Positions 4,033 to 41,546 of a DNA stretch of 64,000 nucleotides are shown piece by piece. Under the pieces are notes generated by a model. It did no database searches, was not told where the DNA came from, and was given only the letters and a program-made list of their open reading frames with translations. The position numbers were made by a program, and so were the translations under genes. Source of the DNA: Confluentibacter flavum (GTDB lineage Bacteria > Bacteroidota > Bacteroidia > Flavobacteriales > Flavobacteriaceae); NCBI RefSeq assembly GCF_002843175.1, contig NZ_PJEO01000009.1:1-64000 (forward strand), given 5' to 3'. Each line of letters opens with the position of its first letter. The stretch's first letter is position 1.

Positions 4033-4096
4033 TACTTTATAAAGGAGCTTGAGATTGTATCTATGGTGTATAACTCATTATAAATAATAAGTAAAA

Positions 4097-6646: not shown

Positions 6647-6658
6647 AAAATATAAATT

Positions 6659-7600: not shown

Positions 7601-7659
7601 AATTAATAAGTTATTGTATTTCAGTTTGTTGTTAGTTTCAAGTTTATAAGAAAAATTTA

Positions 7660-7690: not shown

Positions 7691-7706
7691 ATTAATTAAT
7701 TATTTT

Positions 7707-9179: not shown

Positions 9180-9202
9180 AATGGGGAATATAATATTAAG
9201 CT

Positions 9203-10231: not shown

Positions 10232-10253
10232 TTATTAAATAATAAAAAAAAGA

Positions 10254-11330: not shown

Positions 11331-11362
11331 TAAGAATAAAAAACTATTAAACTAAACTAATT

Positions 11363-12118: not shown

Positions 12119-12175
12119 AATTTATCAGACTAAAATCAGTAAATAATTAATAATTTCATTAAAACATAGAGGCTA

Positions 12176-14263: not shown

Positions 14264-14266
14264 AAA

Positions 14267-14647
14267 ATGACAATAATACATGAAAGTGATGTAGAAGAAG
14301 TAAGCCACCCTGGGCGATTTATGAAATGGTTAGCCAATGAAGATTCTTTACAAGCTAAAAATTTATCAGTTTGCGTCATCAGGGTGTTGCCAGGTGAAAC
14401 GGTGAGACCTGCACATTCCCATCCCAATAGTGAGGAATTGATATATATTATTAATGGTGAAGGAAAAGTAATGATCGAAAATGAAGTCGGCGATGTGAGA
14501 TCTGGCTCGGCCATTCTTTTTGAACAGGGAAAAATCCATATGCTGAAAAACACGGGAGATACAGAAATGAAGGTCATTTGTTTTTTTGCTCCTGCAACCA
14601 ATATTGATAATTATAAAACCTTTGACGATATTACATTTCCTGAATAA
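14267..14647 (+). CDS. Small single-domain cupin
   Basis: This 126-residue protein has one cupin fold. Likely metal ligands are in HSHPNSEELIYIINGEG (two His and a Glu) and the second-motif histidine in GKIHML. It is the last gene of the plus-strand operon, immediately after the transketolase-like gene and before a strong terminator. Cupins of this size include sugar-acid isomerases, lyases and binding proteins, so its function stays open. Confidence 0.78.
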   Translation: MTIIHESDVEEVSHPGRFMKWLANEDSLQAKNLSVCVIRVLPGETVRPAHSHPNSEELIYIINGEGKVMIENEVGDVRSGSAILFEQGKIHMLKNTGDTEMKVICFFAPATNIDNYKTFDDITFPE

Positions 14648-21020: not shown

Positions 21021-22142
21021 ATGCCATCTACTACTAAAGATTTTTACAAGTATTTTTACATTGCAGCCCTTGTTTTTTTAATAGCCTACATTTATATTGT
21101 AGTTGATTCTCATGCCCCTTCTGCTGGATGGGCTTTGCTGTTTTTTTTTACAAGTCTTGCGGTTGCTTTTAAAGGAAGTGAATTACTCAGCGGATTATCC
21201 TTTACCATGGTCATTTTTGGTACTGTAGGACTGTCTTTGTACCATCCAGAATATTTTACCCAATGGGGTGACTTTAATTTAAAGGTCTTAATAATACCGC
21301 TTATACAGATAATCATGTTCGGTATGGGAACATCTATGAGCGTAAAAGATTTTGCTGCTGTAATTAAAACGCCTAAAGGAGTTATTATTGGGGTAGTTAG
21401 TCAGTTTATGATTATGCCCATAATAGGCTTAACATTAGCAAATTTATCTGGTTTAGAACCTGAAATTGCAGCGGGTATTATTTTAATTGGATGTTCGCCA
21501 AGTGGGCTAGCATCTAATGTCATGTGCTATTTAGCAAAAGCTAATCTGGCACTTTCACTAACGGTAACATCTATTACTACATTATTGGCACCATTTATTA
21601 CACCCGTTTTAATGAAATTATTAGCAGGGTCGCTTATAGAAATTGATGTTTATGGAATGATGTGGGAAATATTCAAAATGATAATTATACCAATAGGAGC
21701 TGGTTTAATATTCAATAAACTATTGAGCGGAAAATCACATTGGATAGATAAGGCTATGCCGATAGTTTCCATGATTGGTATTGCATTGATTCTTACTATT
21801 ATAACAGCGGCAGGTAGGGATAGCTTATTAACAATAGGGCCTATATTAATAGTTGTTGTACTAATTCATAACACGTGTGGGTATACCTTAGGATATTGGT
21901 CGGCCAGATTATTTAAAATGCCAGAAAGTGATTGTAGAACTGTTGCATTGGAAGTAGGAATGCAAAATGCAGGTCTTGCATCAGGTATTGCTACACAATT
22001 AGGAAAATTAGCCACATTAGGATTGGCACCTGCAGTGTTTGGTCCATTAATGAATATTACCGGTTCTGCACTAGCTAGTTGGTGGCATAACCGTCAGCCA
22101 GAAGGAGAACAAGAGGAAGAGGTAGAATTCAAAAGGCATTGA
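21021..22142 (+). CDS. BASS-family sodium-dependent organic anion transporter
   Basis: This 373-residue inner-membrane protein has about ten hydrophobic segments. It has the bile acid:sodium symporter features: paired repeats, the GCSPSGLASNVMCYLAKAN stretch of the first discontinuous helix and EVGMQNAGLASGI in the second. Known relatives carry bile acids, pantoate or, in the plant BASS2 group, pyruvate. Its place directly upstream of an exported aldolase and an exported dehydratase suggests sodium-driven uptake of a 2-keto acid or sugar acid made in the periplasm. That substrate is inference. The C-terminus is a short acidic tail. Confidence 0.87.
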   Translation: MPSTTKDFYKYFYIAALVFLIAYIYIVVDSHAPSAGWALLFFFTSLAVAFKGSELLSGLSFTMVIFGTVGLSLYHPEYFTQWGDFNLKVLIIPLIQIIMFGMGTSMSVKDFAAVIKTPKGVIIGVVSQFMIMPIIGLTLANLSGLEPEIAAGIILIGCSPSGLASNVMCYLAKANLALSLTVTSITTLLAPFITPVLMKLLAGSLIEIDVYGMMWEIFKMIIIPIGAGLIFNKLLSGKSHWIDKAMPIVSMIGIALILTIITAAGRDSLLTIGPILIVVVLIHNTCGYTLGYWSARLFKMPESDCRTVALEVGMQNAGLASGIATQLGKLATLGLAPAVFGPLMNITGSALASWWHNRQPEGEQEEEVEFKRH

Positions 22143-22197
22143 TTAAGAATAATAACTTAACTAAACATTCATAAAACTAAACTAAATTTTACCTAAT

Positions 22198-23142
22198 ATG
22201 TCAAAATTAAAATTCGTATTGTTAGCGGTTGCAGCAATAACTCTTGGGATTCAAGTTAATGCCCAAGAGGTACAAATGAGTAAAGAAGAATTAATTTCCT
22301 TAACACCTTCATGGAAAGGAGAACGTTTTCCAGATGGAAGGCCTAAAGTGCCAGACGCTATTCTAAAAAGAATGAAACATGTAAGTGTCGAAGAAGCTTG
22401 GGCAACCATGAAAAATGCTGGATTTGCTCACCAAATTGCTGAAGGATGGATGCAAATAAATCCTGACAGTGTTTTGGTTGGTCGTGCTTTTACAACTATT
22501 TTCATGCCTGGAAGAGCTGATGTATGGAAAGCCATAGATTCAGTTGGTAAGGCTAAAGGCTGGAGAGGACAAAATTCTTGGCCAATAGATATGTTGTCTA
22601 ATGGCGATGTTTATGTGGTCAATCAATTTGGGGCTAAACTTGATGGACCTACTATTGGAGACAATGTTGGTAACGCTATTTATGCGAAAAGTGGCAATGG
22701 TGTTGTTTATGATGGTGCACTTAGGGATGTAGAAGGATTAGAAGAGATTGGAGGCTTTACGTCTTACTATACCAGTTACGACCCTTCATATCACAATCCT
22801 GGAAGAAATCCTAATACCATGATTATGGGAATTAACAAACCTACCTTGATTCGTCAAGTAACCGTAATGCCAGGTGATGTTGTTTTAGGTAGAATGGGTG
22901 TAGTTGTATTTGTTCCACCCCATTTAGCTGAGAGAATTGTTAAAACTTCAGAAGTTGTAAGACTTAGAGATATGTTTGGTCACGAACGTTTGAGAGAAGG
23001 AACCTATACTGCTGGACAGATAGATGGACGTTGGGCCGATGATATTGAAAAGGATTTCTCTAAATGGCTAAATGATCATATAGACGAACTTCCTGTACCT
23101 AAAGAACAAATTCAAGAATTGTTAAAGGAAAGGACTTGGTAG
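22198..23142 (+). CDS. Exported RraA-like aldolase/lyase
   Basis: The protein has 314 residues with a Sec signal peptide ending near residue 22 (VNA-QEV). The body is the RraA / 4-hydroxy-4-methyl-2-oxoglutarate aldolase fold, with GDNVG (154-158) and the Arg176-Asp177 pair that in active aldolases binds substrate and metal. Retention of the pair argues for catalysis and not an RNase E inhibitor role. The family normally cleaves 4-hydroxy-2-keto acids to pyruvate in the cytoplasm, so a signal peptide is unusual. The leader has AACTAAACTAAA at 22175-22186. It is followed after 47 bp by the dehydratase gene. Confidence 0.86.
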   Translation: MSKLKFVLLAVAAITLGIQVNAQEVQMSKEELISLTPSWKGERFPDGRPKVPDAILKRMKHVSVEEAWATMKNAGFAHQIAEGWMQINPDSVLVGRAFTTIFMPGRADVWKAIDSVGKAKGWRGQNSWPIDMLSNGDVYVVNQFGAKLDGPTIGDNVGNAIYAKSGNGVVYDGALRDVEGLEEIGGFTSYYTSYDPSYHNPGRNPNTMIMGINKPTLIRQVTVMPGDVVLGRMGVVVFVPPHLAERIVKTSEVVRLRDMFGHERLREGTYTAGQIDGRWADDIEKDFSKWLNDHIDELPVPKEQIQELLKERTW

Positions 23143-23189
23143 TAAACTAAACAAAAACTATATAAATTACTAATTAATAAACAATTAAA

Positions 23190-24464
23190 ATGGCAAATTC
23201 AAATTCTAGGAGATCGTTCATTACCAAAGCCACCATGGTAGCGGCAGCGGCTCCACTAGTAACATTCGGACAAGGGTATCAAAATGCCGTTGATAAAAAT
23301 GAAAAACTTTCGGCACCGTCCGATTTAAAAATTACAGATATTCAATGCGGAATCATAGGTGGTAGTCTGTTTGTGAAAATATTTAGCGATCAGGACATAT
23401 ACGGTTGTGGCGAAGGTGTAGACGCCATAAGAGGGGCAGAAAGTCTTGCTTTAGGATTTGGTCGTAGATTGAGAGGACAAAGTCCGTTTAACATGCACAA
23501 AATTTTCGAGGATATCCGTAGAGGAGGTCATTTTGGTGGTGGTCAATCGGGTATGTATGTTGCCGTGCTTTCTGCTATAGAAACTGCACTATGGGATTTA
23601 ACAGGTAAAGCACTGGGCCTTCCTATATACCAACTTTTAGGAGGGAAGTTTAGAGATAAAGTACGCGTATATTGTGATACGGCACTTTACCGTGTACGAT
23701 TCCCATCACCAGAAGATTTTGCTACAGCCGCAAAAGATGCTATTAACAATTGGGGATTCAATGCCTTGAAATTCGATATAGATTATGCTTCAGATCCAGA
23801 TAAATACGATCGTTATAACTGGACCGCGAGTCCAGGTGAAATAATAAGAATGTACGATCAATTAGCTGCAGTACGCGAGGCAGTGGGACCAAAAATAGAT
23901 TTATGTGTAGATATGCACGGACGTTACGACCATGTAACTGCACAAACCATTGCTAAGAAAGTGGAAGATTTAAACTTAACATGGTTAGAAGAGCCCATTC
24001 CAGCAGAGAACTATGATGCGTTCAAAACACTTACGGAAGAAACAAGTACGCCAATTTCGGCAGGTGAAAACGTATATCTTGGCCATGGTTTCTTGCAATT
24101 ACTAAATAATGGTGTAGATATTATTATGCCAGATTTACAAAAATGTGGTGGGTTAGGAGAAGGCCAACGTATTGCTAACCTAGCAAACTTATATTATGTG
24201 CCATTCTCTCCACACATGGTGGCATCTTTCTTAGGGGCTATGGCTTGTGCACATGTTTGTGCTTCTGTACCTAACTTCCATTTGATGGAGTGGCAGTCTT
24301 ACTTCCATACTAATGAAATGTACAAGAAAATTGTAATATATGATGAAGGCGACTGGGTAAAAGACAGTTTTGTAACCGTATCTAACAAACCAGGTATTGG
24401 TGTTGACCTTAACATTGAAGCCATGAAAGAGTACAAAAGAGGTGATGCACCATTCTTTGAATAA
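23190..24464 (+). CDS. Tat-exported acid-sugar dehydratase (enolase superfamily)
   Basis: The protein has 424 residues with a twin-arginine signal SRRSFITK (residues 6-13) and a hydrophobic segment to about residue 26. The enolase-superfamily barrel shows metal ligands Asp241, Glu267 or Glu268, and Glu293. His243 lies in DMHGR, and an Asp315/His342 dyad lies in MPDLQKCGG and SPHMVAS. The D-x-HGR pattern is that of mannonate/galactonate-type dehydratases, which convert aldonic acids to 2-keto-3-deoxy acids. A Tat-exported form is unusual, since such enzymes are generally cytoplasmic. Together with the adjacent exported RraA-like aldolase it points to sugar-acid cleavage outside the cytoplasm. 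Confidence 0.88.
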   Translation: MANSNSRRSFITKATMVAAAAPLVTFGQGYQNAVDKNEKLSAPSDLKITDIQCGIIGGSLFVKIFSDQDIYGCGEGVDAIRGAESLALGFGRRLRGQSPFNMHKIFEDIRRGGHFGGGQSGMYVAVLSAIETALWDLTGKALGLPIYQLLGGKFRDKVRVYCDTALYRVRFPSPEDFATAAKDAINNWGFNALKFDIDYASDPDKYDRYNWTASPGEIIRMYDQLAAVREAVGPKIDLCVDMHGRYDHVTAQTIAKKVEDLNLTWLEEPIPAENYDAFKTLTEETSTPISAGENVYLGHGFLQLLNNGVDIIMPDLQKCGGLGEGQRIANLANLYYVPFSPHMVASFLGAMACAHVCASVPNFHLMEWQSYFHTNEMYKKIVIYDEGDWVKDSFVTVSNKPGIGVDLNIEAMKEYKRGDAPFFE

Positions 24465-24491
24465 TTAACGTTCAACTGTGTATTATTCAAC

Positions 24492-24524
24492 AAAAAACCA
24501 CTTCATTTTGAAGTGGTTTTTTAC
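24492..24524. terminator. Bidirectional rho-independent terminator
   Basis: AAAACCACTTCA pairs with TGAAGTGGTTTT around a short TTT loop, with A-rich and T-rich flanks. It lies between convergent genes (dehydratase, plus; DUF1080 lipoprotein, minus) and can serve both. Confidence 0.9.
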
Positions 24525-24549
24525 TTTATAAATTGTCTTTAAAAGATAT

Positions 24550-25149
24550 TTATTTTAAAGGTGTTATCTTTATATTTCTAAATTGAATCTTGCCATCAGT
24601 TTGGTTGTTTCCTAATGCTTGTAATGCAATAAAACCATCCGATAGTTTATCGTCCGTTGCATCTGCCGTTAAAGTACCATTGGTCCAAGCTTGAAAATGG
24701 TTGCCCTCTACTTTAATCTTAAGGGTATTCCATTTATTAATGGTTTCTACAGCTACTAATTGTGGAGCTATAGGCACAATAGATCCAGTTCGATTCGCTG
24801 GAGTTGGATTGGTATCAGAAATATTTACTTCGTAACACTTCTCTGTGTTAATAACCCTTTCACTACAATGAATGTATACACCAGAATTTATAGCGGCATC
24901 TGGACTAAATTCCATTTCTAAAATATAATCATCGTATTTTTGGTTTGTCATCACAAAGCTGTTGCCTCTCATAATACTACCATTTAATATACCATCAGAG
25001 AATTCCCAAGTGGCATCTCCATTTTTGTCCCAGTTTGAAGCATTTTCTTGAAATAGTGTTTGCGAATTTTTACAAGAACTGTTTAAAACTAGAATAGCTA
25101 AAATTAATAGATGTAACCTTGCTTTTTTAATAAAATTTGTAACGTTCAT
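24550..25149 (-). CDS. DUF1080 (3-keto-disaccharide hydrolase-like) lipoprotein
   Basis: This 199-residue protein has a lipoprotein signal ending in SSC at Cys26. The rest is a single DUF1080 jelly-roll with the typical LFQENASNWDKNGDATWEFSDG opening (shortened here to its features: the W-D and the D-G turn), GVYIHCSE in the middle and a closing IQFRNIKI strand. Some family members cleave 3-keto glycosides. It is transcribed against the neighbouring plus-strand genes, with its own leader CAACTAAAAATG. It probably acts at the cell envelope together with the DUF1080-VCBS protein at 4097-6046. The enzymatic role is inferred from family annotation. Confidence 0.8.
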   Translation of the reverse strand: MNVTNFIKKARLHLLILAILVLNSSCKNSQTLFQENASNWDKNGDATWEFSDGILNGSIMRGNSFVMTNQKYDDYILEMEFSPDAAINSGVYIHCSERVINTEKCYEVNISDTNPTPANRTGSIVPIAPQLVAVETINKWNTLKIKVEGNHFQAWTNGTLTADATDDKLSDGFIALQALGNNQTDGKIQFRNIKITPLK

Positions 25150-25450
25150 TTTTAGTTGTTTTTTTAATATTTATTTATAATTATTGCTGTTTTGTAGTTA
25201 TTTTTATTATGAAAGTAACAAAACAACAATGGTTTTAGTTGTAATCTAATATAAGTAAATTTTATATAAATGGAATAAATTAGATTTATTGTTTTAATTA
25301 TTTTTTATTGATTTTTTTAATCAAATATGATACTATTAGAGGTCTGTTTCATCAATAGATTTTTTAAAATCTTAACTTTTTAAGATGAGCCATTTATCAT
25401 AAAAATAACTATTTTTATAAAAATAAATTAAATCAACAAAAACTAAACTA
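25150..25450. promoter_or_regulatory. Divergent promoter region
   Basis: This 301-bp AT-rich interval separates the DUF1080 lipoprotein gene (minus) from the cupin-SMP-30 gene (plus). No gene was found. On the plus strand AAACTAAACTA runs into the ATG at 25451, the tightest example of the recurrent leader motif. No exact TAnnTTTG promoter element could be fixed. Confidence 0.5.
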
Positions 25451-27388
25451 ATGAATTTGAAATTAACCAATAGAATATTTAACAGTGTTTTTCTTGTCGT
25501 TGTCACTTTTGCAATGGTTCAGTGCAAACAATCAACGGCACCAGAGTGGCAAGAGACAAATGAAGCACTCATAAGTCAGCATAGTCTTTCTGTAAGAGAG
25601 TTGACTGACTTACCAGAAAACGGCATAGCATCTAACCTTGAGGCCGGTAAAGTAATAAATCTTGATAAAGTGGATAGTCTTGAACTTCACCCAGGTGTAA
25701 ACGCAAAGATTTTTTGGGGCACAGGAACCATGGTGAGTGTTATTCAAATGGCACCTAATTCAAAAATTCCTGATGAGGTATTATCAGAAGATAGATTTCT
25801 TTTTGTACAAGAAGGATCCATCAATCAACTTATAAACGACTCGGCTGTTACATTGGCTTCAGTAAAGAGAGAAGAACCAGATGGAAGCCACAGTGGCACA
25901 CCTAAAACAGAATTTGTTTATTTAAAAAAAGGCACAAAAAGTAGCATCACCGCTGGTGATTCTGGAGCTAGACTACTTGAATTGTATAGCCCACTGCGAT
26001 TAGATTATCTTAAACAATTAGGTATTGAAAATCTTCCGAGTGACATAATAGATGTTAAAAACACCCAAGAACCTAATATTGAGTTCAATAAGGTATATGA
26101 TTTATATGATTTTCAATTAACTAAATTGGCTGAAGGGGCTCATTCTAGGTTGATTTCTGGAAGAAATACGCAGTTAAGTTTTATTTCTATGGACCCAGGT
26201 TCCACATTTCCACACCATATACATCCAGAAGAACAAATGATGTTCGTAATGCGTGGTGAATGTGATGAAATAATACTTGATGGCAAAGCACGTATGGTAG
26301 AAAATGACGTAGTTCGCTTACCTGGAAATATGGTTCATGGCGCTTACATTAGTGAACTTGGCTGTGATGCGTTGGACATTTTTTGGCCTGCGCGAGCAGA
26401 TTATTCTGAAAAGGAAAAGGCGGTTTTATCCGCTTATCATGAGATCATTCCTGAAGATGCCAAACCAGAATTATTGGTTGATGGGACAAAAACAGAACCC
26501 GCTTTAACATTTAGCGAAGGACCTAAATGGATGAATGGTAAGGTATATTTTTCGAATATGTATTTTGATCAAAATTGGAATGCCGACCCCAAAAAGAGTT
26601 CTATTGTAGAACTAGACCCTAGTGGCAGTTACAAAAATATCACAGAAGGTAAGATGCAAGCAAATGGCTTATATCCTTACAAAAATGGAAATTTAATTGT
26701 TTGTGATATGATAGGGCATCGTGTTGTTGAAATGACTACCACAGGACAAGTAGTGAGGGTTTTGGTTGATAAGTATGACGGAAAGCCTATTGACGGTCCT
26801 AATGATGTAATCACAGATACCAAAGGTGGCTTCTATTTTACTGACCCTCAGTTTACTATGGAAGCAGAGAAATCGCAACCTGGACGTGCAGTATATTATG
26901 TGTCACCAGAAGGTAAAATAACAAGAATTGTTGAGCCTAATGAATTCGCCATGCCAAACGGTATTTTATTGTCGCCTGATGGTAAAATACTTTACATAAA
27001 TAATTGTTATGATGATGAATCATGGTATCCTGTAAACAGCGAGAAAGATAATTTTATTTGGGCGTATGATGTGAATGAGGATGGAACAATAACTAACGGT
27101 CGCCAATTTGCAAAACTGTTTTTGACAGGAAATGTTTTGGATAGAAAAGGAAAATCCTCTAGTGCCGATGGTATGGCCATTGATAAAATGGGTAACATTT
27201 ATGTTGGTACGTATTATGGTGTTCAAATCTTTAACAATAAAGGTGAATATGTAGGGATGATTAATTTACCTTCATTTCCAGTAAGCCTTTGTTTTGGTGA
27301 CGAGGATATGAAAACACTATACATTGTAAGTTACAGTAAAGTGTATAAAATCCGAACCAATATGGAAGGGTATATTAACTACTTATGA
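25451..27388 (+). CDS. Cupin-SMP-30 fusion lipoprotein
   Basis: The protein has 645 residues and a lipoprotein signal with lipidated Cys25 (AMVQC). Residues about 60-165 look like a degenerate cupin. Residues about 225-305 are a clear cupin with HHIHPEE, GECDEI and a later HG. From about 335 to the end is a complete SMP-30/gluconolactonase propeller with SEGPKWM, GPNDV, NGILLSPDG and SADGMAID. Fusion of a sugar-binding or isomerising cupin to a lactonase suggests that the two act in sequence on one lactone at the envelope. A second exported SMP-30 gene follows after 38 bp. Confidence 0.85.
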   Translation: MNLKLTNRIFNSVFLVVVTFAMVQCKQSTAPEWQETNEALISQHSLSVRELTDLPENGIASNLEAGKVINLDKVDSLELHPGVNAKIFWGTGTMVSVIQMAPNSKIPDEVLSEDRFLFVQEGSINQLINDSAVTLASVKREEPDGSHSGTPKTEFVYLKKGTKSSITAGDSGARLLELYSPLRLDYLKQLGIENLPSDIIDVKNTQEPNIEFNKVYDLYDFQLTKLAEGAHSRLISGRNTQLSFISMDPGSTFPHHIHPEEQMMFVMRGECDEIILDGKARMVENDVVRLPGNMVHGAYISELGCDALDIFWPARADYSEKEKAVLSAYHEIIPEDAKPELLVDGTKTEPALTFSEGPKWMNGKVYFSNMYFDQNWNADPKKSSIVELDPSGSYKNITEGKMQANGLYPYKNGNLIVCDMIGHRVVEMTTTGQVVRVLVDKYDGKPIDGPNDVITDTKGGFYFTDPQFTMEAEKSQPGRAVYYVSPEGKITRIVEPNEFAMPNGILLSPDGKILYINNCYDDESWYPVNSEKDNFIWAYDVNEDGTITNGRQFAKLFLTGNVLDRKGKSSSADGMAIDKMGNIYVGTYYGVQIFNNKGEYVGMINLPSFPVSLCFGDEDMKTLYIVSYSKVYKIRTNMEGYINYL

Positions 27389-27426
27389 ACATCCAATAAT
27401 ACTAAACATAATTTAAATTAAACTGA

Positions 27427-28407
27427 ATGAAAAAAATTGTAACATTAGGTCTATTTGCTTTTGCATTAACCGTTTCCGGTCAAGATATAGGAAGCATTGA
27501 AATTATTTCAGACGAATTATCAGGCGTTATAGACACAAATGCCAAAGTTGAAAAAATTGCTGATGGCTGTCAATTTACTGAAGGACCATTATGGATTAAA
27601 AAAGAAAACATGTTATTGTTTTCTGATGTTCCTGCAAATACTATTTATAAATGGACTGAGGCTAAGGGTAAAGAGGTGTATTTAAAGCCAGCCGGTTATA
27701 CATCTACTGAATCTAGAGGTGGGTTTATGGGCTCAAACGGACTTTATCTTACTAAAAAGGGAGAATTGTTAATTTGTCAGCATGGCGACAGAAGAATAGC
27801 AAAAATGGATGCGCCCCTGAATGCTCCGCAAACAAATTATATAACGGTTGTTGGTGAGTACGATGGCAAGAGACTTAACAGTCCAAATGATTTGGTAATG
27901 TCTAAAAAGGGAGATTTGTATTTTACCGACCCAGGATATGGTTTTGAAAAAGGCATGAACGATCCTAAAAAAGAAATTTCTTTTCAAGGTGTTTATAAAA
28001 TGGATAAAAAAGGAAAAGTAACCCTTCAAGATGATGCCATTCCTCAACCAAACGGTATTGCTATTTTTCCAGATAAAAAAACCATGATTGTTGCTAGTAC
28101 GGATGGGCCGGATAAGGGTTGGTTTTTATACGATATTGATAAAGATGGCATTTTAAAAAACAAACGCGTATTCTATAATGTTGCCAAAGAAAGAGGTATG
28201 GGAGGCTGTGATGGATTGAAGATTGATAAATCTGGTAATGTTTTTGCAACAGGCCCTGGTGGGATATGGATATTTACCCAACAAGGTAAACTTATTGGAA
28301 AAATAAAGTTTGATAGGCTAACAGTAGCCAACCTTGCTTTTACTCCAGATGAGAAAACAATGTATATTACGGCTACAAGTAATGTATTTAGATTAAAAAT
28401 AAAATAA
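27427..28407 (+). CDS. Exported SMP-30/gluconolactonase-family lactonase
   Basis: The protein has 326 residues with a Sec signal peptide ending near residue 19 (TVSGQ). The six-bladed SMP-30 propeller has the metal-site segments TEGPLWI (Glu), NSPNDLV (Asn), QPNGIAIF and GCDGLKID (Asp). It hydrolyses lactones, here presumably those made by the periplasm-facing PQQ dehydrogenases. It is likely co-transcribed with the upstream cupin-SMP-30 gene, and its leader has ACTAAAC at 27401-27407. A strong hairpin terminator follows. Confidence 0.87.
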   Translation: MKKIVTLGLFAFALTVSGQDIGSIEIISDELSGVIDTNAKVEKIADGCQFTEGPLWIKKENMLLFSDVPANTIYKWTEAKGKEVYLKPAGYTSTESRGGFMGSNGLYLTKKGELLICQHGDRRIAKMDAPLNAPQTNYITVVGEYDGKRLNSPNDLVMSKKGDLYFTDPGYGFEKGMNDPKKEISFQGVYKMDKKGKVTLQDDAIPQPNGIAIFPDKKTMIVASTDGPDKGWFLYDIDKDGILKNKRVFYNVAKERGMGGCDGLKIDKSGNVFATGPGGIWIFTQQGKLIGKIKFDRLTVANLAFTPDEKTMYITATSNVFRLKIK

Positions 28408-28426
28408 TAATAGTAAGTAAATTAAA

Positions 28427-28466
28427 AAACAACAGCGCCATGGTTTTAACTATGGCGCTGTTGTTT
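28427..28466. terminator. Bidirectional terminator, 15-bp stem
   Basis: The arms 28427-28441 and 28452-28466 are perfectly complementary (AAACAACAGCGCCAT and its complement) around a 10-base loop, with A and T flanks. It lies between the convergent SMP-30 gene (plus) and quinohemoprotein gene copy 2 (minus). Confidence 0.9.
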
Positions 28467-28507
28467 AACTAAATCACTATGGCACTTGGGTCCATAGCGG
28501 TTTAGTT

Positions 28508-30799
28508 TCAAGGAATTTGTTTTTCTTCCTTTTCAGGAAGCGCATAAACCACATATCCTTTAGGAATGTCCTCTTCGTTTAGCGAATCGTCCATTAAGCG
28601 TCCTGTAGAGCACAATACGAGGTATTGTCGTCCATTTGCTTGATACATGGCAGGAATACCCTGGGGATTTAAGCGTCCTACTTCTTTTTTCCAAAGAATA
28701 TCGCCATTATCAGCATCATAGGCATAAACCCTGCCATCGCCTGCAGTAGCAAATACCAGTCCTGTTGCTGTAACGACCATTCCTTTTCGTAGGGATCCGT
28801 TGGCTGTTCCTGTATTTTCTTCGCTATCAATGTCATCATCATCACCTAAAGGCACCTTCCATTTAATAACTCCCTTATTTAAATCATAAGCGACAATCCA
28901 TGACCACGCTGGTGTTAAAATATCGTTAGCTGCCTCACCATAGTTATTGGATTCTATATAAATTGCTTTAGGACCCATGTAATCCTTGGGATACCCAACT
29001 TCTTTTCGTGGTGGGTAATCGGGAACTTTTACTCCCCCGGAAGCTACTACAGGCCCCGATGGCGGGGGTGCCTGCTCTTGTTGGCTGTTATTACCTCTTG
29101 TTCTGGCTAAGGATGCAAGGTAGGTGTATAGATTACTCAAGGTTTCACCATCTAGGTGCGGCATTGCAGGCATACGACCCTTACCATTGGTCACTGTCAA
29201 TTTGAAGGCATCCAATCCTCCACTTCGATCCATAGTGAGCAAACTGGTTCCTAATCCCTCCAAACCATTTTTATCAGCACCATGGCATACCAAGCAGGTT
29301 TGTTTATATGAAGCCTCTGCTTTTGCTATTAGATCACCAGACAGTTCCAAGTTGTTCTTTCTCGGCTCCCGAATTTTTAACCTATAAATTGATGCAGATT
29401 CTTTGGTTTGCACATAGACAATACCTTTCTTAGGGTTTGCCGCCGTATTGCCATAATTAGCACCACCTGTGGAGCCTGGAATGGCAATGGTTTCATACTT
29501 ATCGGAAAGTGGCTGGAACATACCTACTTTCGCTTTACCAATTCTTTCAATCATTTCTTCACGTTTTTCGTCGCTCAAATAAGGATTCAAATCCTCTACG
29601 GTCACTACTTGGCGATTGAATGGTGGTATGACGGTCGGAAAGGGTTGGGTTGGCCATGATTTTTCATCAGGCATGTCACTTTGTGGAACAGGCCTTTCCT
29701 CAATAGGCCAAAGCGGTTTCCCAGTTACCCGATCAAACACGTACAAAAACCCTGTTTTAGCAGCAACTGCTACAGCATCAACCTCTTTGCCATCGTGCTG
29801 AACGGTAATCAACTGAGGTGCAGCCGTGAGGTCATAGTCCCACAAATCATGGTGTACCGTTTGAAAATGCCAGAGTCTTTTGCCTGTGCGTGCATCAAGT
29901 GCGATGATACAATTTCCAAACAGATTAGCTCCTTGACGGTCAACACCATCAAAATCATAGGTTGGTGACCCAGTTGGGAAGTAAGCAATGCCACGTTCCG
30001 CATCTACAGATATTTCCCCCCAGGTATTGGTAGCCCCTGCATATTTGTAAGCATCCTTTGGCCAGGTTTCGTAACCATATTCGCCTGGAAGGGGGATGGT
30101 ATGAAAAATCCATTCCATTTTTCCAGTGATTACACTATAAGCACGAAGGTGTCCAGGCCCAACAAATGGGTTTTCTCCTGGAGCTGAACCTACGAGAATC
30201 AGGTCCTCAAATACATGACCAGGAATAACTGGTGTCATACGGCCAAGTGTTTCGGGATCCCGATCTACTCCAAGTCGCATGTCGGTATATCCCGGACCGG
30301 TATCGCCAAAGTCCATGATGGACTTTCCAGTAATGGCATCGATTGCCTGCATGGTGTTGTTCAGAAATATGATCAGTCGCTTCATACTCTTATTTTCACT
30401 TTGCCAGAAATTGATTCCGCGGGTAATGATCCCACGGAGATTCTCATGAATCCAGATTTCTGCTCCGGTACTAGCATTTACCGCAATAATCGAATTATTT
30501 CGACCCATCACATACATCACGTTATCCACGATGATGGGATTGAAATTATAGTTGGAATTATCGTAGGTGGGAACAACAAATGCCACTTCTAGTTGATTGA
30601 CATTTTCCTTAGTGATCTGGTTGAATTCCACAAATTTTGAATGATCAGGTCCCCCGCCATAGTCTTTCCATTCAATGTGTTGTTGTGTTGCTAGAGGTGC
30701 TGAATTTTCATCATTACAGCTGGCTAAAAGGAGACTGAAGGGAAATAAAATCCAAAATGATGGTGATATTCTTCCTGAAAGAGTTCTTGAGAGTAGCAT
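28508..30799 (-). CDS. PQQ-dependent quinohemoprotein dehydrogenase (lipoprotein), copy 2
   Basis: This 763-residue paralogue of the proteins at 1768-4032 and 39294-41546 has a signal peptide ending LLASC (Cys28). The propeller has HHDLWDYD near 316, the cytochrome c insert has CLVCH at 502-506, and Met543 (GRMP) is the likely sixth haem ligand. The propeller resumes afterwards. Its GC content and codon choice look slightly higher than copy 3, so it is not a very recent duplicate. It is the last gene of the minus-strand block and the leader carries the ACTAAACTAA motif (30809-30818). A sugar or polyol is the likely substrate, not determined. Confidence 0.9.
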   Translation of the reverse strand: MLLSRTLSGRISPSFWILFPFSLLLASCNDENSAPLATQQHIEWKDYGGGPDHSKFVEFNQITKENVNQLEVAFVVPTYDNSNYNFNPIIVDNVMYVMGRNNSIIAVNASTGAEIWIHENLRGIITRGINFWQSENKSMKRLIIFLNNTMQAIDAITGKSIMDFGDTGPGYTDMRLGVDRDPETLGRMTPVIPGHVFEDLILVGSAPGENPFVGPGHLRAYSVITGKMEWIFHTIPLPGEYGYETWPKDAYKYAGATNTWGEISVDAERGIAYFPTGSPTYDFDGVDRQGANLFGNCIIALDARTGKRLWHFQTVHHDLWDYDLTAAPQLITVQHDGKEVDAVAVAAKTGFLYVFDRVTGKPLWPIEERPVPQSDMPDEKSWPTQPFPTVIPPFNRQVVTVEDLNPYLSDEKREEMIERIGKAKVGMFQPLSDKYETIAIPGSTGGANYGNTAANPKKGIVYVQTKESASIYRLKIREPRKNNLELSGDLIAKAEASYKQTCLVCHGADKNGLEGLGTSLLTMDRSGGLDAFKLTVTNGKGRMPAMPHLDGETLSNLYTYLASLARTRGNNSQQEQAPPPSGPVVASGGVKVPDYPPRKEVGYPKDYMGPKAIYIESNNYGEAANDILTPAWSWIVAYDLNKGVIKWKVPLGDDDDIDSEENTGTANGSLRKGMVVTATGLVFATAGDGRVYAYDADNGDILWKKEVGRLNPQGIPAMYQANGRQYLVLCSTGRLMDDSLNEEDIPKGYVVYALPEKEEKQIP

Positions 30800-32408: not shown

Positions 32409-33335
32409 CTACCATGTTCTCTTGCTCATCACTTTATCTAGTTCGGCACGGGTCATAGTCCCTAATTCAGGGTGTTTTTTTAGCCATTCTAGAAAAGCAA
32501 TTTTTATGTCATCACCCCATTGACTATCTATTTCACCTGTGCTGTATTTACCGGTTTTTACCATTTCAAAACCAAATTGGTCTTTTCTGGTTACAAATTC
32601 TGAGGTACTCACCACTTGCTCAGCCATATGCGCAGGAACAAAAAGCACACCTTCAATGGTGGCAATTACTAAGTCACCAGGAAGTACAATGGCATCACCA
32701 ATACGGATAGGTGTATTAAGTCCCATAAGGACCATGAATTCTGTAAACGACGGATGAAAATCACGTACAAAAGCATTAAAGCCTTTAATATTCTGTAATT
32801 CCTGTAAATCCCTAGAGGCGCCATTAAACACCACACCGTTTCCTGACTTACTGAATATGGAGTTCGCTAAAGTAGCGCCCATAATGGGGCCACCATTAAT
32901 CTTGCCATAAGCATCGGCAACATATAAATCACCTTTTGAAAGCATATCAATAGGCCAAGCGTTGGTATTACCTTTTTTTCCTTGTGTGGCGCCTCTTTCT
33001 TTAATATTTTTTTCCACATCAGGTCGACTAGGCATATACATCGCAGTAACGGCACGACCTGTCATAGTCGTACTATTGACCATTTTCCAATCACCAGCAT
33101 ATTGGTTTATATAACCTTCATTTCTCAATACGGTCCAAGCATCATCAATCATAATGTTTTTAGCTCTTTCCAATAAATCATCGGAAATTTTTGGCCTTCC
33201 ATCTTCAAACCGTTCGCCTTGCCATTCTGAAGTAAGGAATAGCATTTCTTCTTTTGCAATGGTCTGAGCATCTAATTGACTTACAAAACCTAGAGTAAAT
33301 AGAATAATAGCACTAAATAATTTCATTGTATTCAT
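32409..33335 (-). CDS. Exported RraA-like aldolase/lyase, second copy
   Basis: The protein has 308 residues with a signal peptide ending near residue 23 (LDAQT). It is a full-length paralogue of the protein at 22198-23142, with the same opening EWQGERFEDGRPK, the Arg175-Asp176 pair in GASRDLQ and the C-terminal TGEIDSQWGDD segment. A short decayed copy of the C-terminal segment lies just upstream (33384-33470), so the gene family has duplicated or recombined here. It probably cleaves a 4-hydroxy-2-keto acid in the periplasm; the exact substrate may differ from copy 1. Confidence 0.85.
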   Translation of the reverse strand: MNTMKLFSAIILFTLGFVSQLDAQTIAKEEMLFLTSEWQGERFEDGRPKISDDLLERAKNIMIDDAWTVLRNEGYINQYAGDWKMVNSTTMTGRAVTAMYMPSRPDVEKNIKERGATQGKKGNTNAWPIDMLSKGDLYVADAYGKINGGPIMGATLANSIFSKSGNGVVFNGASRDLQELQNIKGFNAFVRDFHPSFTEFMVLMGLNTPIRIGDAIVLPGDLVIATIEGVLFVPAHMAEQVVSTSEFVTRKDQFGFEMVKTGKYSTGEIDSQWGDDIKIAFLEWLKKHPELGTMTRAELDKVMSKRTW

Positions 33336-35022: not shown

Positions 35023-36654
35023 CTAAAACGCTATTAATGTATTGTTTACTGCATCCATGCCTAAACGTTCTTTAAGCTGTGTTAGGTAAAGACTTTTTGG
35101 TGTTACGTGCCTATCAGTAGACTCCACAAATCCGTTTGGTTTGGTAAGATCCTGCAAGGCCGCATTGAAAACCACGGCATTGACCCCAATGTGACCAAAA
35201 GAATAATTGTTGGCAGTAGGAGGACTCTGAATTAGGTAATCACCTTCACAATTCCAAAAAACAATGTTTGCACCAGCCCATCCTATGATGTAATCCCAGA
35301 ACCTTGCTGTCAACGGAGCTTTTACATTATCATATAACACACCATTGGCCCAACGGTTATGCGGTTCACTAGAAGAGTAGGGGTTAATTGCAGTGCACTC
35401 AAGGAATACATTGCCACTGGATTCAGAGCCCTGAAGTACAAAAGAGTGACGGCCTTTTTGCGAAATGCATCTTTGAACCAACGACAATTGCCCGTTAACT
35501 TGAAAAGTAAACCTTCGTCCACCCCATCGTTGGCTCACTGGCTCACGGGATTCACAGTCCTGAATGGTAATCCATTTTGTGCCGGCATTGGTCTGGATCA
35601 CACTGCTTGCAAAATGTAAGGCAGTGATATTTCTTACCCATCCATTTTGAATATTACTGAAGTCTACTAAGCTTGAATAGTGGTTTTCATCGGAATAATA
35701 TTCTTCTCCTTCATATCTATGTTCTGCACCCAAATCATCCCTATCCATGTTTCCATAGGCGGTTTGCCGAACTGAGGGGTCGTATTCTGAAATTCCTCGT
35801 AAATTTTCAATACCCACCTGCTCAATCCGTGCATCTGAATATTTGCTGATATTTCCACCGCCCCATTGACTGTCAACAGCAGTATAAATTGGAGCGTCTA
35901 TTGTAATCCTATTGCCATTTATAGCAGTGATGATACGATCATAAGTAATGTCGAAGGGTCTCCAACGATTTCTTCCAACAGAAGCAGAATCAAGACCAAT
36001 AGCTTTGATAAAATCTTCATTTCCAATTCTTTTTATAGAAATTTTATCGCCTTCCTTAAACCCTTTTCCTGATTTCACATTGAAACTTTTGGCTCCAACG
36101 GGCACATAATTGTCCGTAATATCCTGAGTAGAATTTTCATCAATGCTAATTCCAGATTCACCTGCAATATTGATCAAGGCAGGTCTTCTAAATCGACCAC
36201 CTCCTTCTGGCGCAGTGAGTATTTTACCATAAAGGATGGTGCCAGTATCACCTTGACCTTCCCCTCTTAGAACAACCCCAGACGCTTTGATATATATAGG
36301 ATTTTCTAGAACGTAAAAACCTGCCTTAAGCAAAACAGCACCTCTGAAACCAAAAGCATCAGGTGTTAATACAGAAACACTATCGATTGCTTTTTGAATG
36401 CGTTCGGCATTATCTCCCAAAACAGGCCATACAGTTGCTTTAGATTGAACGTATGGAATTGGTACGCCTCCTCCTTTGTAACCAGCATTTGAAAAGTCGG
36501 GAATAACATTGCCAAGGCTATCTGGAACATACACCAGTTTGCCATCTGGGCCAGGATAAACTTTAGATGTGGTGGGCGGAATATCTTGTGCATGACTAGC
36601 AAAAATACATGCAAATAATGTAAACAAAACAATCCAAGAAATCTTAATTTTCAT
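35023..36654 (-). CDS. Exported right-handed beta-helix protein (pectate-lyase-like)
   Basis: The protein has 543 residues with a signal peptide ending ASHAQ near residue 23. From about residue 80 it shows the N-terminal cap of pectate-lyase-superfamily proteins (NAERIQKAIDSV, GAVLLKAGFYVL, GVVLRGEGQG), followed by repeated helix rungs with Asn/Ser turns to about 480. Such proteins are polysaccharide lyases, epimerases or hydrolases. No family-specific catalytic set could be recognised, so only the fold is claimed. It is the only candidate glycan-chain-cleaving enzyme of the locus. Its leader contains the long dyad shared with the gene starting at 17902. Confidence 0.75.
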   Translation of the reverse strand: MKIKISWIVLFTLFACIFASHAQDIPPTTSKVYPGPDGKLVYVPDSLGNVIPDFSNAGYKGGGVPIPYVQSKATVWPVLGDNAERIQKAIDSVSVLTPDAFGFRGAVLLKAGFYVLENPIYIKASGVVLRGEGQGDTGTILYGKILTAPEGGGRFRRPALINIAGESGISIDENSTQDITDNYVPVGAKSFNVKSGKGFKEGDKISIKRIGNEDFIKAIGLDSASVGRNRWRPFDITYDRIITAINGNRITIDAPIYTAVDSQWGGGNISKYSDARIEQVGIENLRGISEYDPSVRQTAYGNMDRDDLGAEHRYEGEEYYSDENHYSSLVDFSNIQNGWVRNITALHFASSVIQTNAGTKWITIQDCESREPVSQRWGGRRFTFQVNGQLSLVQRCISQKGRHSFVLQGSESSGNVFLECTAINPYSSSEPHNRWANGVLYDNVKAPLTARFWDYIIGWAGANIVFWNCEGDYLIQSPPTANNYSFGHIGVNAVVFNAALQDLTKPNGFVESTDRHVTPKSLYLTQLKERLGMDAVNNTLIAF

Positions 36655-39293: not shown

Positions 39294-41546
39294 CTACTTT
39301 TTGTCTGGAAGTGCATAGACGACATACCCTTTAGGTAAGGCGCCAGGTTCTTTTGAATGGTCAAAACTATCTCGCGAAAATGTACCAGTAGCATTGATAA
39401 CTAAATATTGTTTGCCATTTATAGCATACATCGCTGGTACTGCAACAGATTCATTACTTAAAGTGGTTTCCCATAAAACGTAGCCAGTGTCTTGATCTAA
39501 TGCATATAGTTTACCACCTTTTGCAGTAACAAATACAATACCTGTAGAGGTTACCACCATACTTTTACGTTGAACGCCTACAATTGCCCCTTTAGTTTTA
39601 TCTCCATTAACGAATTCGTAGTCTTCACCTATGGGTGTTTTCCATTTTATGGTACCGTCATTTAAGTCGTAAGCCACAATATAAGACCAAGGTGGAGACA
39701 TTAAACTAGTCCACTCAAGACCATAATCTGTTGTGTATCTACTTTCGGGATGTTCAACATCTTCTGGATAATCTAACATTGGTGCGGCACGTTTTTCATC
39801 TTCTCTCATTTTGACGCCTCCCGATGCTACAACGGGGCCTTCGGGCATTACTTCTTCATCGGTATCTCCTCCTCTTCTAAAATTCATGCTTCTTGGATTT
39901 CCTCCCATAAAACGATATAAACTTGCTAATGATGCTTCATCTACATGCACAAAGCCTGGCATTTGCCCACGACCATTTAATACGATGGCTTTAAATTCAT
40001 CATAAAATATATGTTGTGTTACATTTTTAAGGGTTGGTCCAACACCACCTTCCATATTTGGTCCGTGACAAGTTTTACAAGAGTTGTCGTATAGCGTTTT
40101 AGCTTTTTTAGCCTCATCCTCAGAAAGATTTATTTTTGGTGGCTCTACTTTGCTCAACTTATAAATTGAAGGATGTTCTTGGGACATTACAAACATTAAT
40201 CCTTTTTCAGGGTTACTTCCTGTATTGCCATAATTGGCACCTCCTAATGGGCCAGGTAATATAATGGTTTCATATTTGTCTGATGGCGGTACAAACAAAC
40301 CTGTTTTAGCAGCATCTATTCTAGCATGCCATACTTGCTTTAAACTGTCCGAAAAATATGGGTTAATGTTCTCTTTTGTCACTTCATGCCTCATAAAACT
40401 AGGAATTGTTGGTATGGGCTGGGTAGGCCAGGCTTTTTCATCTGGCATGTCACTAGCAGGAAAAGGTTTTTCTTCGATAGGAAATACGGGTTCACCCGTT
40501 ACACGATCAAAAACAAATACATAACCATGTTTAGTGGCTGAAGCAACGGCATCAATTTTTTTACCATCCTTGTTAATGGTTAATAATTGAGGAGCAGGAG
40601 AGAGGTCGTAATCCCAAAGGTCATGATGCACTGTTTGGTAATGCCAAAGACGCTTTCCGGTTGTAACATCTAGTGCAACCAATGAATTTCCAAATAGGTT
40701 GCTTCCTATACGGTCGGCTCCATAATAATCATACGTTGGGGATCCTAGTGATAGGTAAACAATGTTTCTTTCAATATCTGCAGACATTTCGCTCCAAACA
40801 TTTACACCGCCAGCATATTTATAAGCATCTTTTGGCCACGTGTCGTAACCAAACTCTCCTGGGTGTGGTATGGTATGAAAGGTCCATTCCAATTTTCCTG
40901 TAATAACACTATAAGCTCTTACATAGCCTGGCGCTGAATAGTAACCTTCTCCAGGTGCAGAACCTAAAATAAGTATATCGCCACAAATAACACCGGGCAT
41001 CATCGCTTGTACCCTTCTAATGGAGCTTGGTTCACGATCTAGACCTTCTCTTAAATCGGTATAGCCCCCTTCGCCAAAAGTTAGAATGGATTTTCCAGAA
41101 ACAGCGTCTATAGCTTGTAATGAATTATTAAGCGTAAATATTAATCTTTTATCTTTTTTATCGTTACTTTCCCAGTAATTGATCCCTTTTCTTGTTAGCC
41201 CTCTTAAATTGGCATGTATCCAGATTTCCTCACCTGTTAAAACATTTAAAGCAATCAAGGAATTGTTTTTTCCTACTACATACATGGTAGTATCTGCCAC
41301 TATAGGGCTAAAGTTATTAAAACCTCCTTCGGCAGGATAGCTCCAGGCGACTTCTAATTGGTTAACATTTTCCTTAGTGATTTCAGAGCCATCAAAATAT
41401 TTGGATTGATCTGGACTTCCGCCATAATGTGTCCAAGTTGTATGTTTGATGGTTGAATTATCTTTTCCGCAACTTACTAATAAAGTAAGACATAATAAAG
41501 CAGCAAAAGTTGTGGTTAATTTAGTTGGATTTTTTTTGGTGTGCAT
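39294..41546 (-). CDS. PQQ-dependent quinohemoprotein dehydrogenase (lipoprotein), copy 3
   Basis: This 750-residue paralogue has a signal peptide ending LLVSC (Cys26). The propeller has HHDLWDYD near 307, the inserted cytochrome c has CKTCH at 490-494, Met529 (GQMP) is a candidate axial ligand, and the propeller C-terminus follows. It is the first gene of the minus-strand block that runs down to 28508. Its leader holds the best example of the shared motif, with three ACTAAA units. Three diverged paralogues in one locus suggest oxidation of different positions or different sugars. The substrates cannot be separated by sequence alone. Confidence 0.9.
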   Translation of the reverse strand: MHTKKNPTKLTTTFAALLCLTLLVSCGKDNSTIKHTTWTHYGGSPDQSKYFDGSEITKENVNQLEVAWSYPAEGGFNNFSPIVADTTMYVVGKNNSLIALNVLTGEEIWIHANLRGLTRKGINYWESNDKKDKRLIFTLNNSLQAIDAVSGKSILTFGEGGYTDLREGLDREPSSIRRVQAMMPGVICGDILILGSAPGEGYYSAPGYVRAYSVITGKLEWTFHTIPHPGEFGYDTWPKDAYKYAGGVNVWSEMSADIERNIVYLSLGSPTYDYYGADRIGSNLFGNSLVALDVTTGKRLWHYQTVHHDLWDYDLSPAPQLLTINKDGKKIDAVASATKHGYVFVFDRVTGEPVFPIEEKPFPASDMPDEKAWPTQPIPTIPSFMRHEVTKENINPYFSDSLKQVWHARIDAAKTGLFVPPSDKYETIILPGPLGGANYGNTGSNPEKGLMFVMSQEHPSIYKLSKVEPPKINLSEDEAKKAKTLYDNSCKTCHGPNMEGGVGPTLKNVTQHIFYDEFKAIVLNGRGQMPGFVHVDEASLASLYRFMGGNPRSMNFRRGGDTDEEVMPEGPVVASGGVKMREDEKRAAPMLDYPEDVEHPESRYTTDYGLEWTSLMSPPWSYIVAYDLNDGTIKWKTPIGEDYEFVNGDKTKGAIVGVQRKSMVVTSTGIVFVTAKGGKLYALDQDTGYVLWETTLSNESVAVPAMYAINGKQYLVINATGTFSRDSFDHSKEPGALPKGYVVYALPDKK

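Follow-up and report, generated by a model that had tools for sequence, protein, structure and literature searches.

A dehydratase and an RraA-family lyase with export signals form a conserved gene pair in Bacteroidota and are candidates for a sugar-acid route in the cell envelope

The non-phosphorylative pentose routes of the Dahms and Weimberg type proceed by oxidation of the sugar, hydrolysis of the lactone, dehydration to a 2-keto-3-deoxy acid and then either aldol cleavage or a second dehydration, and in the known routes dehydration and the later steps are cytosolic. A locus of Confluentibacter flavum, positions 21021-30799 of a window that covers positions 1-64,000 of contig NZ_PJEO01000009.1, raises the question whether steps in this same order can take place outside the cytoplasm. 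An earlier examination of the letters alone (the sequence-only reading) had named at this locus a BASS carrier, an RraA-like protein, a dehydratase, two SMP-30 proteins and a pyrroloquinoline quinone (PQQ) dehydrogenase, and had proposed that all four steps occur outside the cytoplasm. Every gene that it named is an open reading frame at the positions given below, and Pfam searches returned the families it had stated. The observation is confirmed in a stronger form than that in which it was made, as the pair of predicted exported enzymes, dehydratase and RraA protein, is conserved across many Bacteroidota. The reading which we favour, and for which we consider the chances to be evenly balanced, is that these two enzymes may carry out two consecutive non-phosphorylative sugar-acid steps in the cell envelope and that the BASS carrier may import the product.

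The core of the locus is an operon of three closely spaced genes on the plus strand, in the order BASS, RraA1, dehydratase. The first gene (21021..22142) encodes a sodium symporter of the BASS/SBF family (Pfam SBF, 129.5 bits), a proposed importer of a keto-acid or hydroxy-acid product. The second (22198..23142) encodes RraA1, a putative exported RraA-family lyase of 314 residues, either an aldolase or a dehydratase/decarboxylase (Pfam RraA-like, 51.1 bits against a cut-off of 24.5), which starts with a Sec-type signal peptide, MSKLKFVLLAVAAITLGIQVNA (22198..22263), followed by Q at the predicted cleavage site. The third (23190..24464) encodes an enolase-superfamily sugar-acid dehydratase of the MR_MLE family and DgoD kind (424 residues; Pfam MR_MLE_C, 182.6 bits) whose Tat-type (twin-arginine translocation) signal (23190..23273) contains the motif RRSFI.

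For the comparison of loci, one genome per species was scanned with peptide patterns of RraA1 and the best 80 of 105 relatives were kept; because the patterns came from one protein, these 80 loci lean to close relatives and are not independent samples. Genes at the loci were called as the longest non-overlapping frames, neighbours were grouped by similarity clustering with one representative per group named by database search, and homologs were searched for by tblastn at E 1e-15, which misses distant ones. Full flanks of 10 kb are available at only 48 of the 80 loci, so that neighbour counts over all 80 are lower bounds; counts out of 47 refer to these full-length loci with L069, in which the RraA1 frame was uncalled, excluded. 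All loci are labelled Bacteroidota except L100 (Rhodothermia) and L046 (Williamsia, an actinobacterium; this may be a mis-binned contig).

RraA1 and a dehydratase of the type described above (type 1) are direct neighbours on the same strand in 75 of the 80 loci, with a median gap of 34 bp. The exceptions are L045 (BASS gene in between), L067 (contig end), L097 (no type-1 dehydratase) and L069 and L113 (RraA1 frame uncalled). A dehydratase of the MR_MLE family is present in 79 loci, L097 having a distant type only. The BASS gene was found in 52 loci, in 50 of them within the same-strand gene run of RraA1, and that the carrier belongs to the same operon as RraA1 and the dehydratase is supported. 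Among Flavobacteriaceae, an exported-type RraA occurs in 32 of 299 genomes at E 1e-20 or better, and in a sample of the phylum in 24 of 395 at E 1e-60 or better; the dehydratase accompanies RraA1 in all 14 sampled Flavobacteriaceae with an RraA1 of at least 63% identity, the C. flavum genome included. It is concluded from this recurrence, which goes beyond chance, that the conserved unit consists of RraA and dehydratase, often with BASS. We also considered the whole stretch 21021-30799 as one conserved cluster and rejected this, as only BASS, RraA and dehydratase recur widely and the full gene set was found only in L037 and one congener (L146-L147). A cluster conserved across genomes, as anticipated by the sequence-only reading, therefore exists for RraA and dehydratase and often BASS, but not for the PQQ dehydrogenase (6/80 loci) and the SMP-30 proteins (10/80), which leaves the genes for sugar oxidation and lactone hydrolysis outside the conserved unit.

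The phylogenetic analysis of 116 RraA proteins points in the same direction. Of 76 RraA proteins that neighbour a type-1 dehydratase, 75 fall into a single clade of 79 rows with a support of 100/100, which also holds the RraA1 of the window and three RraA proteins that have no direct partner. The sole type-1 neighbour outside this clade is the L083 protein, which is of the RraA2 type and lies downstream of a type-1 pair. All 22 RraA proteins paired with a second type of dehydratase (type 2) are placed outside the type-1 clade; the C. flavum genome itself has such a second pair, a type-2 dehydratase with the exported-type RraA3, on contig C4 (L158 9332-11680). As the paired clades indicate that RraA and dehydratase diverged together, we argue that they work together, and a functional link between dehydratase and RraA1 is supported as far as sequences can tell.

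Export of both enzymes was assessed with simple rules. The Tat motif, defined as RRx[FLI] within the first 75 residues, is present in 77 of 77 type-1 dehydratase orthologs and in 22 of 23 type-2 paralogs, in which it sits behind a long n-region (the one miss reads RRDVLKK), and in none of 126 neighbouring cytosolic proteins used as controls (AraC 36, FGGY 34, aldehyde dehydrogenase 21, IlvD 18, FAH 17). A hydropathy rule finds a Sec-like N-terminus in 102 of 110 RraA proteins, in none of the 126 controls and in none of ten short RraA proteins; its threshold was raised from a mean hydropathy of 1.6 to 2.0 after the lower value had called six of these ten, all of them FlDet-like, and it is blind to the difference between a signal and a membrane helix, calling also 51 of 51 BASS and 4 of 11 GntP proteins. 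TatC is encoded in the C. flavum genome (contig C48). The PQQ dehydrogenase and SMP-30 proteins of the window have export or lipoprotein-like N-termini according to a first-pass signal rule, which accepted KR and thereby mislabelled many Sec signals as Tat and which missed signals where the first start codon was too far upstream. By these sequence rules, the export claimed earlier holds for the dehydratase and the RraA protein, and the N-termini of the PQQ and SMP-30 proteins are at least export-like.

The dehydratase has 29% identity to E. coli DgoD and matches it at all seven catalytic positions compared (D241, H243, E267, E293, D315, H342 and E367); DgoD differs in having neither an N-terminal extension nor a Tat motif in the alignment. 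In DgoD, three acidic residues are metal ligands and an Asp and a His form the catalytic dyad. Among orthologs with letters at the respective column, the metal ligands D241 (76/76), E267 (75/75) and E293 (75/75) as well as the dyad D315-H342 (73/73) are conserved without exception, and all seven positions, including the DxH motif and the late Glu, are invariant, which confirms the metal and His-Asp residues pointed out in the sequence-only reading. The histidine of the DxH motif is missing in 22 of 23 type-2 dehydratases. Among NCBIfam models the type-1 dehydratase of the window scores 224.6 bits with galactonate dehydratase, 119.8 bits with L-talarate/galactarate dehydratase and 24.6 bits with glucarate dehydratase.

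The AlphaFold model of RraA1 (predicted local distance difference test score, pLDDT, 88.8) matches structures of the RraA fold in Foldseek searches (3K4I, 5X15, 5IR2 and 3NOJ), among them the 4-hydroxy-4-methyl-2-oxoglutarate/4-carboxy-4-hydroxy-2-oxoadipate (HMG/CHA) aldolase 3NOJ with E 2.6e-11. The Arg-Asp pair R176-D177 is present in 110 of 110 RraA relatives. In addition, D155, which is found in 75 of 76 type-1 partners, aligns with the Asp of the GD that precedes the RD pair in HMG/CHA aldolase, and this shared residue suggests that RraA1 leans towards the aldolases. HMG/CHA aldolase (LigK/PcmE) thus resembles RraA1 in its fold, in the Arg-Asp pair and in the preceding Asp; it differs in that the match by phmmer is weak (16.9 bits, E 0.026) and in that it acts in the breakdown of aromatic compounds, PMC5065237 describing the roles of its Arg123 and of the metal ligand Asp124. 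A role of RraA1 as a regulator of RNase E was considered and is thought unlikely, given its predicted export and its invariant aldolase-type Arg-Asp pair. One of the structures matched by the RraA1 model, 5IR2 (Foldseek E 1.7e-12), was deposited as a novel cellulase from gut-associated microbes, a label that may deserve a check.

FlDet from Flavobacterium sp. UMI-01 is likewise a flavobacterial RraA-family enzyme that acts on a 2-keto-3-deoxy acid. It is however a short protein of 237 residues, which retains its initiator Met when purified, and a dehydratase/decarboxylase for 2-keto-3-deoxy-D-glucarate, as described in PMC8563752. In our comparisons FlDet-like proteins, chosen by length and, by eye, by their N-terminal likeness, stand in for the sequence of FlDet itself, and the five aligned have Ser at the position of D155. 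With its 314 residues, its signal and its Asp instead of Ser, RraA1 does not belong to the short, signal-less FlDet-type class. As the FlDet-like proteins also have the Arg-Asp pair, the pair is no proof of retro-aldol chemistry. The aldolase named in the sequence-only reading is therefore borne out in its RraA fold and Arg-Asp pair, while its retro-aldol reaction is putative, FlDet being a dehydratase/decarboxylase.

The cargo of the carrier had been sought in an analogy with the plant BASS2 group, which carries pyruvate. The best relatives of the carrier in the PDB are 3ZUY and 8OYF, both labelled Transporter, which makes it a relative of ASBT_NM; it scores 231.3 bits with the NCBIfam model of PanS (cut-off 400). 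According to PMC10645422, Asn265 of ASBT_NM is tied to the binding of pantoate, a 2-hydroxy acid, and in the plant keto-acid carriers compared there, among them BASS2, Ser and Gln take the places of Asn265 and Thr112. With positions equated by eye from the alignment, the residue of our carrier that corresponds to Asn265, Asn316, is Asn in 52 of 52 carriers, and that which corresponds to Thr112, Leu163, is Leu in 45, Met in 5 and Val in 2. The fold family and the pantoate-site Asn are thus shared with ASBT_NM and PanS, whereas plant BASS2 has Ser and Gln where the carriers here have Asn and mostly Leu. We therefore rejected the BASS2 analogy as evidence for pyruvate, which finds no support in these residues. 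The same source states that ASBT_NM binds pantoate and not ketopantoate and that the cargo of PanS is reported to include ketopantoate. A small hydroxy acid, or a 2-keto-3-deoxy acid that resembles ketopantoate, is as likely a cargo as pyruvate.

Hints to the substrate come from the neighbouring genes. Among the 47 full-length loci, the recurrent neighbours are BASS (37), SusC (32), AraC (25), SusD (24) and FGGY kinase (24), followed by aldehyde dehydrogenase (16), IlvD-type dehydratase (13), FAH protein (13) and GntP (10). SusC and SusD are the usual outer-membrane importers. At 12 of the 80 loci there are esterase genes, and at 9 there are GH3 genes. The best solved relative of the FAH protein is the 2-keto-3-deoxy-D-arabinonate dehydratase 2Q18 (E 1.8e-44), and the IlvD protein scores just short of the cut-off for L-arabinonate dehydratase (846 against 882 bits). 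The best NCBIfam models for the aldehyde dehydrogenase are those of 2,5-dioxovalerate and alpha-ketoglutaric semialdehyde dehydrogenases, but the scores are far under the cut-offs, so that its role is taken from its context.

A FAH gene with at least 52% identity was found in 11 of the 14 Flavobacteriaceae with RraA1 and in none of 14 without, one of the latter having a weak match of 35%; these 14 control genomes were hand-picked from the top of the no-match list, with less complete ones excluded and kinship not corrected for. Six of the 11 genomes have an exported-type RraA within 10 kb of the FAH gene. A homolog of the semialdehyde dehydrogenase discriminates poorly (13/14 genomes with RraA1, 6/14 without). 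In the C. flavum genome, contig C21 (L171 4300-11912) carries in a row a GH10 xylanase, an IlvD-type dehydratase, a GntP permease, a KdaD-like FAH protein, an esterase and an aldehyde dehydrogenase, probably a Weimberg-type cluster for xylan pentoses. The sequence-only reading had claimed that only the keto acid is imported, and the presence together on C21 of GntP, an IlvD-type dehydratase, a homolog of 2-keto-3-deoxypentonate dehydratase and an aldehyde dehydrogenase makes this claim too strong. The neighbouring genes suggest pentonates that derive from xylan or arabinan, as well as a second route, in the cytosol, beside the exported one; judged by them, a pentonate would be the likeliest substrate. 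As a separate observation, 34 of the 80 loci (e.g. L085 7308-8831) have near the module an FGGY kinase whose closest match is gluconokinase (416 bits against a cut-off of 649), and the model proposed here leaves the substrate of this kinase unexplained.

The remaining genes of the stretch would supply an accessory front end. A fusion of a cupin with an SMP-30 domain of the lactonase family, with a signal-like N-terminus (25451..27388; Pfam SGL 129.4 bits, Cupin_2 33.9 bits), and an SMP-30/gluconolactonase-family protein with an export-like N-terminus (27427..28407; SGL 155 bits) form a separate pair on the plus strand. The opposite strand encodes a lipoprotein (28508..30799; PQQ 498.3 bits, Cytochrome_CBB3 37 bits) that is a PQQ dehydrogenase of the glucose-dehydrogenase type into which a cytochrome c domain is inserted. 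The minus strand also holds the gene of a DUF1080 protein (3-keto-disaccharide hydrolase family) with a signal-like N-terminus (24550..25149; PF06439, 113.8 bits), an accessory gene that the sequence-only reading had not listed and that is present in 4 of the 80 loci.

The PQQ enzyme has 27% identity to Gcd, the periplasmic PQQ glucose dehydrogenase of E. coli. Trp404, Thr424, Asp466 and Lys493, residues with known roles in Gcd, are kept in all six aligned sequences, Gcd included, while H262, N607 and H775 of Gcd are not kept in the other five. It differs from Gcd in lacking the N-terminal membrane part, in being a lipoprotein and in its inserted cytochrome c. A search of 32 genomes returned 43 PQQ matches, of which all eight with at least 50% identity (three in C. 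flavum, three in the congener and one each in two other genomes) have an exported-type RraA gene no more than about 20 kb away; among the 35 more distant matches this is true of one (G289:C25). It follows that one PQQ clade accompanies the module, though only a minority of lineages show this. Seven of the 14 Flavobacteriaceae have SMP-30 homologs at most 10 kb from RraA1, namely close homologs in C. flavum and G226, one close and one distant in G110 and distant ones (34-37%) in G129, G227, G172 and G011, and the lactonase link is therefore wider than the PQQ link. Of the ten loci with SMP-30 of either kind, which count any hit, eight belong to the 48 with full flanks, and of the six with PQQ five do; by best hit, SMP-30 is found in 7 and the cupin fusion in 6 of the 80 loci, one of the latter at only 28% identity.

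PqqE was not found in the C. flavum genome, the best score being 65.4 bits against a cut-off of 381.35, in a search that was confined to this pqq gene. PQQ would probably have to be scavenged rather than made by the cell. PMC12124388 reports PQQ scavenging in Bacteroidota and the absence of PQQ synthesis genes from 206 Bacteroidota that produce PqqU. The best homolog here of the PQQ importer PqqU (contig C30) has 27% identity; of the importer signature Y99, R304 and R365, the first and last are aligned, and a Gln stands in place of R304 where the alignment is uncertain.

Starting from the export signals, the catalytic residues and the linkage, which are read from sequence, we infer the substrate, the RraA reaction and the carrier cargo as follows. 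The Tat-exported, metal-dependent dehydratase would convert an aldonate, most likely a pentonate, into a 2-keto-3-deoxy acid, on which the Sec-exported RraA-family metal lyase would act next. Its most likely reaction is a retro-aldol cleavage that yields pyruvate and a short aldehyde, and the BASS sodium symporter encoded alongside would then import the organic-acid product. In this species and a minority of its relatives, the exported PQQ dehydrogenase and the SMP-30 lactonases could supply the aldonate from free sugar. A complete envelope route, in which oxidation, delactonisation, dehydration and aldol cleavage by a new class of RraA aldolase would all precede uptake and the cell would take in nothing but a three-carbon acid and a short aldehyde, we regard as unlikely; the four-step pathway is plausible for this species and a few relatives only. 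Of the four external steps proposed earlier, those of the dehydratase and RraA protein thus stand as far as predicted export is concerned; a retro-aldol reaction is putative and PQQ and SMP-30 are not part of the conserved unit, their place in a pathway being favoured by their export-like N-termini and by the PQQ clade near RraA and disfavoured by their occurrence in a minority of loci.

Several observations weigh against the favoured reading of an envelope dehydratase and lyase with product import. Neither RraA1 nor the dehydratase reaches the NCBIfam cut-off of a known aldolase or dehydratase (33 against 304.5 bits for RraA1 with LigK/PcmE, 224.6 against 311 for the dehydratase with galactonate dehydratase). 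The FlDet-like proteins (about 20-24% identity, blastp 47-63 bits), the closest class to RraA1 for which we found a sugar-acid activity, have an activity other than that of an aldolase. The Ser and Gln of the keto-acid BASS proteins are missing from the carrier. L097 has RraA1 without a type-1 dehydratase although its contig continues. The FAH gene is missing from 3 of the 14 genomes with RraA1, 24 of the 47 full-length loci have none of the IlvD, FAH and aldehyde dehydrogenase genes, and in several relatives FAH and aldehyde dehydrogenase genes lie in the gene run of RraA itself.

This last arrangement, with FAH and aldehyde dehydrogenase directly after the pair, suggests that the 2-keto-3-deoxy acid enters the cytosol uncleaved. 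The carrier would then import intact 2-keto-3-deoxypentonate, which a KdaD-like dehydratase and a semialdehyde dehydrogenase in the cytosol would convert to 2-oxoglutarate in the manner of Weimberg, and RraA1 would serve a branch, salvage or another acid. We consider this possible, if rather improbable. Same-strand runs of BASS, RraA, dehydratase, FAH and aldehyde dehydrogenase, with no IlvD in the available stretch, occur in L064 and L099, which have full 10 kb flanks, and in L068 and L076, which are short contigs. The likeness of the FAH protein to 2-keto-3-deoxy-D-arabinonate dehydratase, its genome profile (11/14 against 0/14) and its closeness to exported-type RraA in 6 of 11 genomes fit as well, and so does the kinship of the carrier with PanS, whose reported cargo includes ketopantoate (PMC10645422); like a 2-keto-3-deoxy acid, ketopantoate is a 2-keto-4-hydroxy acid that lacks a 3-hydroxyl. 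On the other hand, the strictly conserved RraA partner would be left without a clear job, ASBT_NM binds pantoate and not ketopantoate (same source), and in C. flavum the FAH and aldehyde dehydrogenase genes are located on a different contig, where the adjoining IlvD and GntP already provide for their supply. If RraA1 instead worked like FlDet, as a dehydratase/decarboxylase that forms alpha-ketoglutaric semialdehyde from a 2-keto-3-deoxy-aldarate, the dehydratase would act on an aldarate such as galactarate or glucarate. FlDet has this activity and, according to PMC8563752, did not recognise 4-deoxy-L-erythro-5-hexoseulose uronate (DEHU), 2-keto-3-deoxygluconate (KDG), 2-keto-3-deoxy-6-phosphogluconate (KDPG) or 4-hydroxy-2-oxoglutarate, and the blastp scores of RraA1 with FlDet-like proteins exceed its phmmer score with 3NOJ, though the two programs are not strictly comparable. 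However, the Asp common to RraA1 and the aldolase is Ser in the five FlDet-like proteins, and the dehydratase clearly favours the galactonate model over those of the aldarates; we hold such a role to be distinctly unlikely.

The exported enzymes might also act on the acid ends of oligosaccharides imported by SusC/SusD, and not on free sugar acids. The frequency of SusC (32/47) and SusD (24/47), together with the esterase and GH3 genes, would agree with this, and a dehydratase that acts on oligosaccharide ends is known from Formosa agariphila (PMC8511951). As neither enzyme has a Pfam carbohydrate-binding domain at E 0.001 and the DgoD-type residues, from what is known of the family, suggest open-chain acids, we regard this as very improbable. 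Finally, the signals might be non-functional or the genes mere neighbours, with enzymes that are cytosolic or act on unrelated substrates. The simplicity of the export rules, with a Sec threshold raised after false positives and membrane helices called as well, leaves some room for this; the conservation of the signals against 0 of 126 controls, the paired clades and the adjacency in 75 of 80 loci make it hardly credible.

If the favoured reading is true, an exported dehydration and lyase step with import of the product would be a new form of a known pathway, differing from the Dahms and Weimberg routes in the export signals of the dehydratase and the next enzyme and in the families employed (DgoD-type and RraA-type). 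It would place part of the sugar-acid catabolism of soil and marine Bacteroidota in the envelope, a compartment from which intermediates can be lost to neighbours and which offers neither phosphorylation nor NAD. It would also assign a role to one class of exported RraA proteins, which shares its name with an RNase E regulator, and a predicted cargo to a class of bacterial BASS carriers. The complete route, if true, would place both sugar-acid dehydration and carbon-carbon cleavage outside the cytoplasm. We found no description of the exported dehydratase/RraA pair in the open-access PMC literature, judged mostly on titles and the openings of abstracts. As the pair is recognisable by its sequence and occurs in cultivated species, such as Confluentibacter citreus (L037), it is directly testable.

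Related genes are found elsewhere in the window. RraA2 (32409..33335, minus strand; Pfam RraA-like, 55.5 bits) is a second RraA-family protein of exported type, placed in a separate clade of the tree; it lacks a dehydratase partner at this place, as do most of its closest relatives in the tree, and it has Ala at the position of the Asp common to RraA1 and HMG/CHA aldolase. A second PQQ dehydrogenase lipoprotein (39294..41546, minus strand; Pfam PQQ, 513.6 bits) has 54% identity to the enzyme at 28508, and a third PQQ dehydrogenase (1723-4032, plus strand) belongs to the same clade.

This third enzyme opens a second row of genes (1723-14647), most of which is kept in the congener (L146). The row contains, besides the PQQ dehydrogenase and with some names given by eye, a DUF1080/FG-GAP protein, a YdcZ-like membrane protein, a Tat-type sugar isomerase-like protein, an aldehyde dehydrogenase, an SMP-30 protein without signal, a zinc dehydrogenase, an SDR protein, a transketolase-like protein and a cupin. 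At the left window edge lies an open reading frame that, by eye, is transposase-like (86-964). A protein of 543 residues with a signal-like N-terminus and no Pfam match is encoded at 35023-36654, and two copies of it are present in the relatives L038, L147 and L151.

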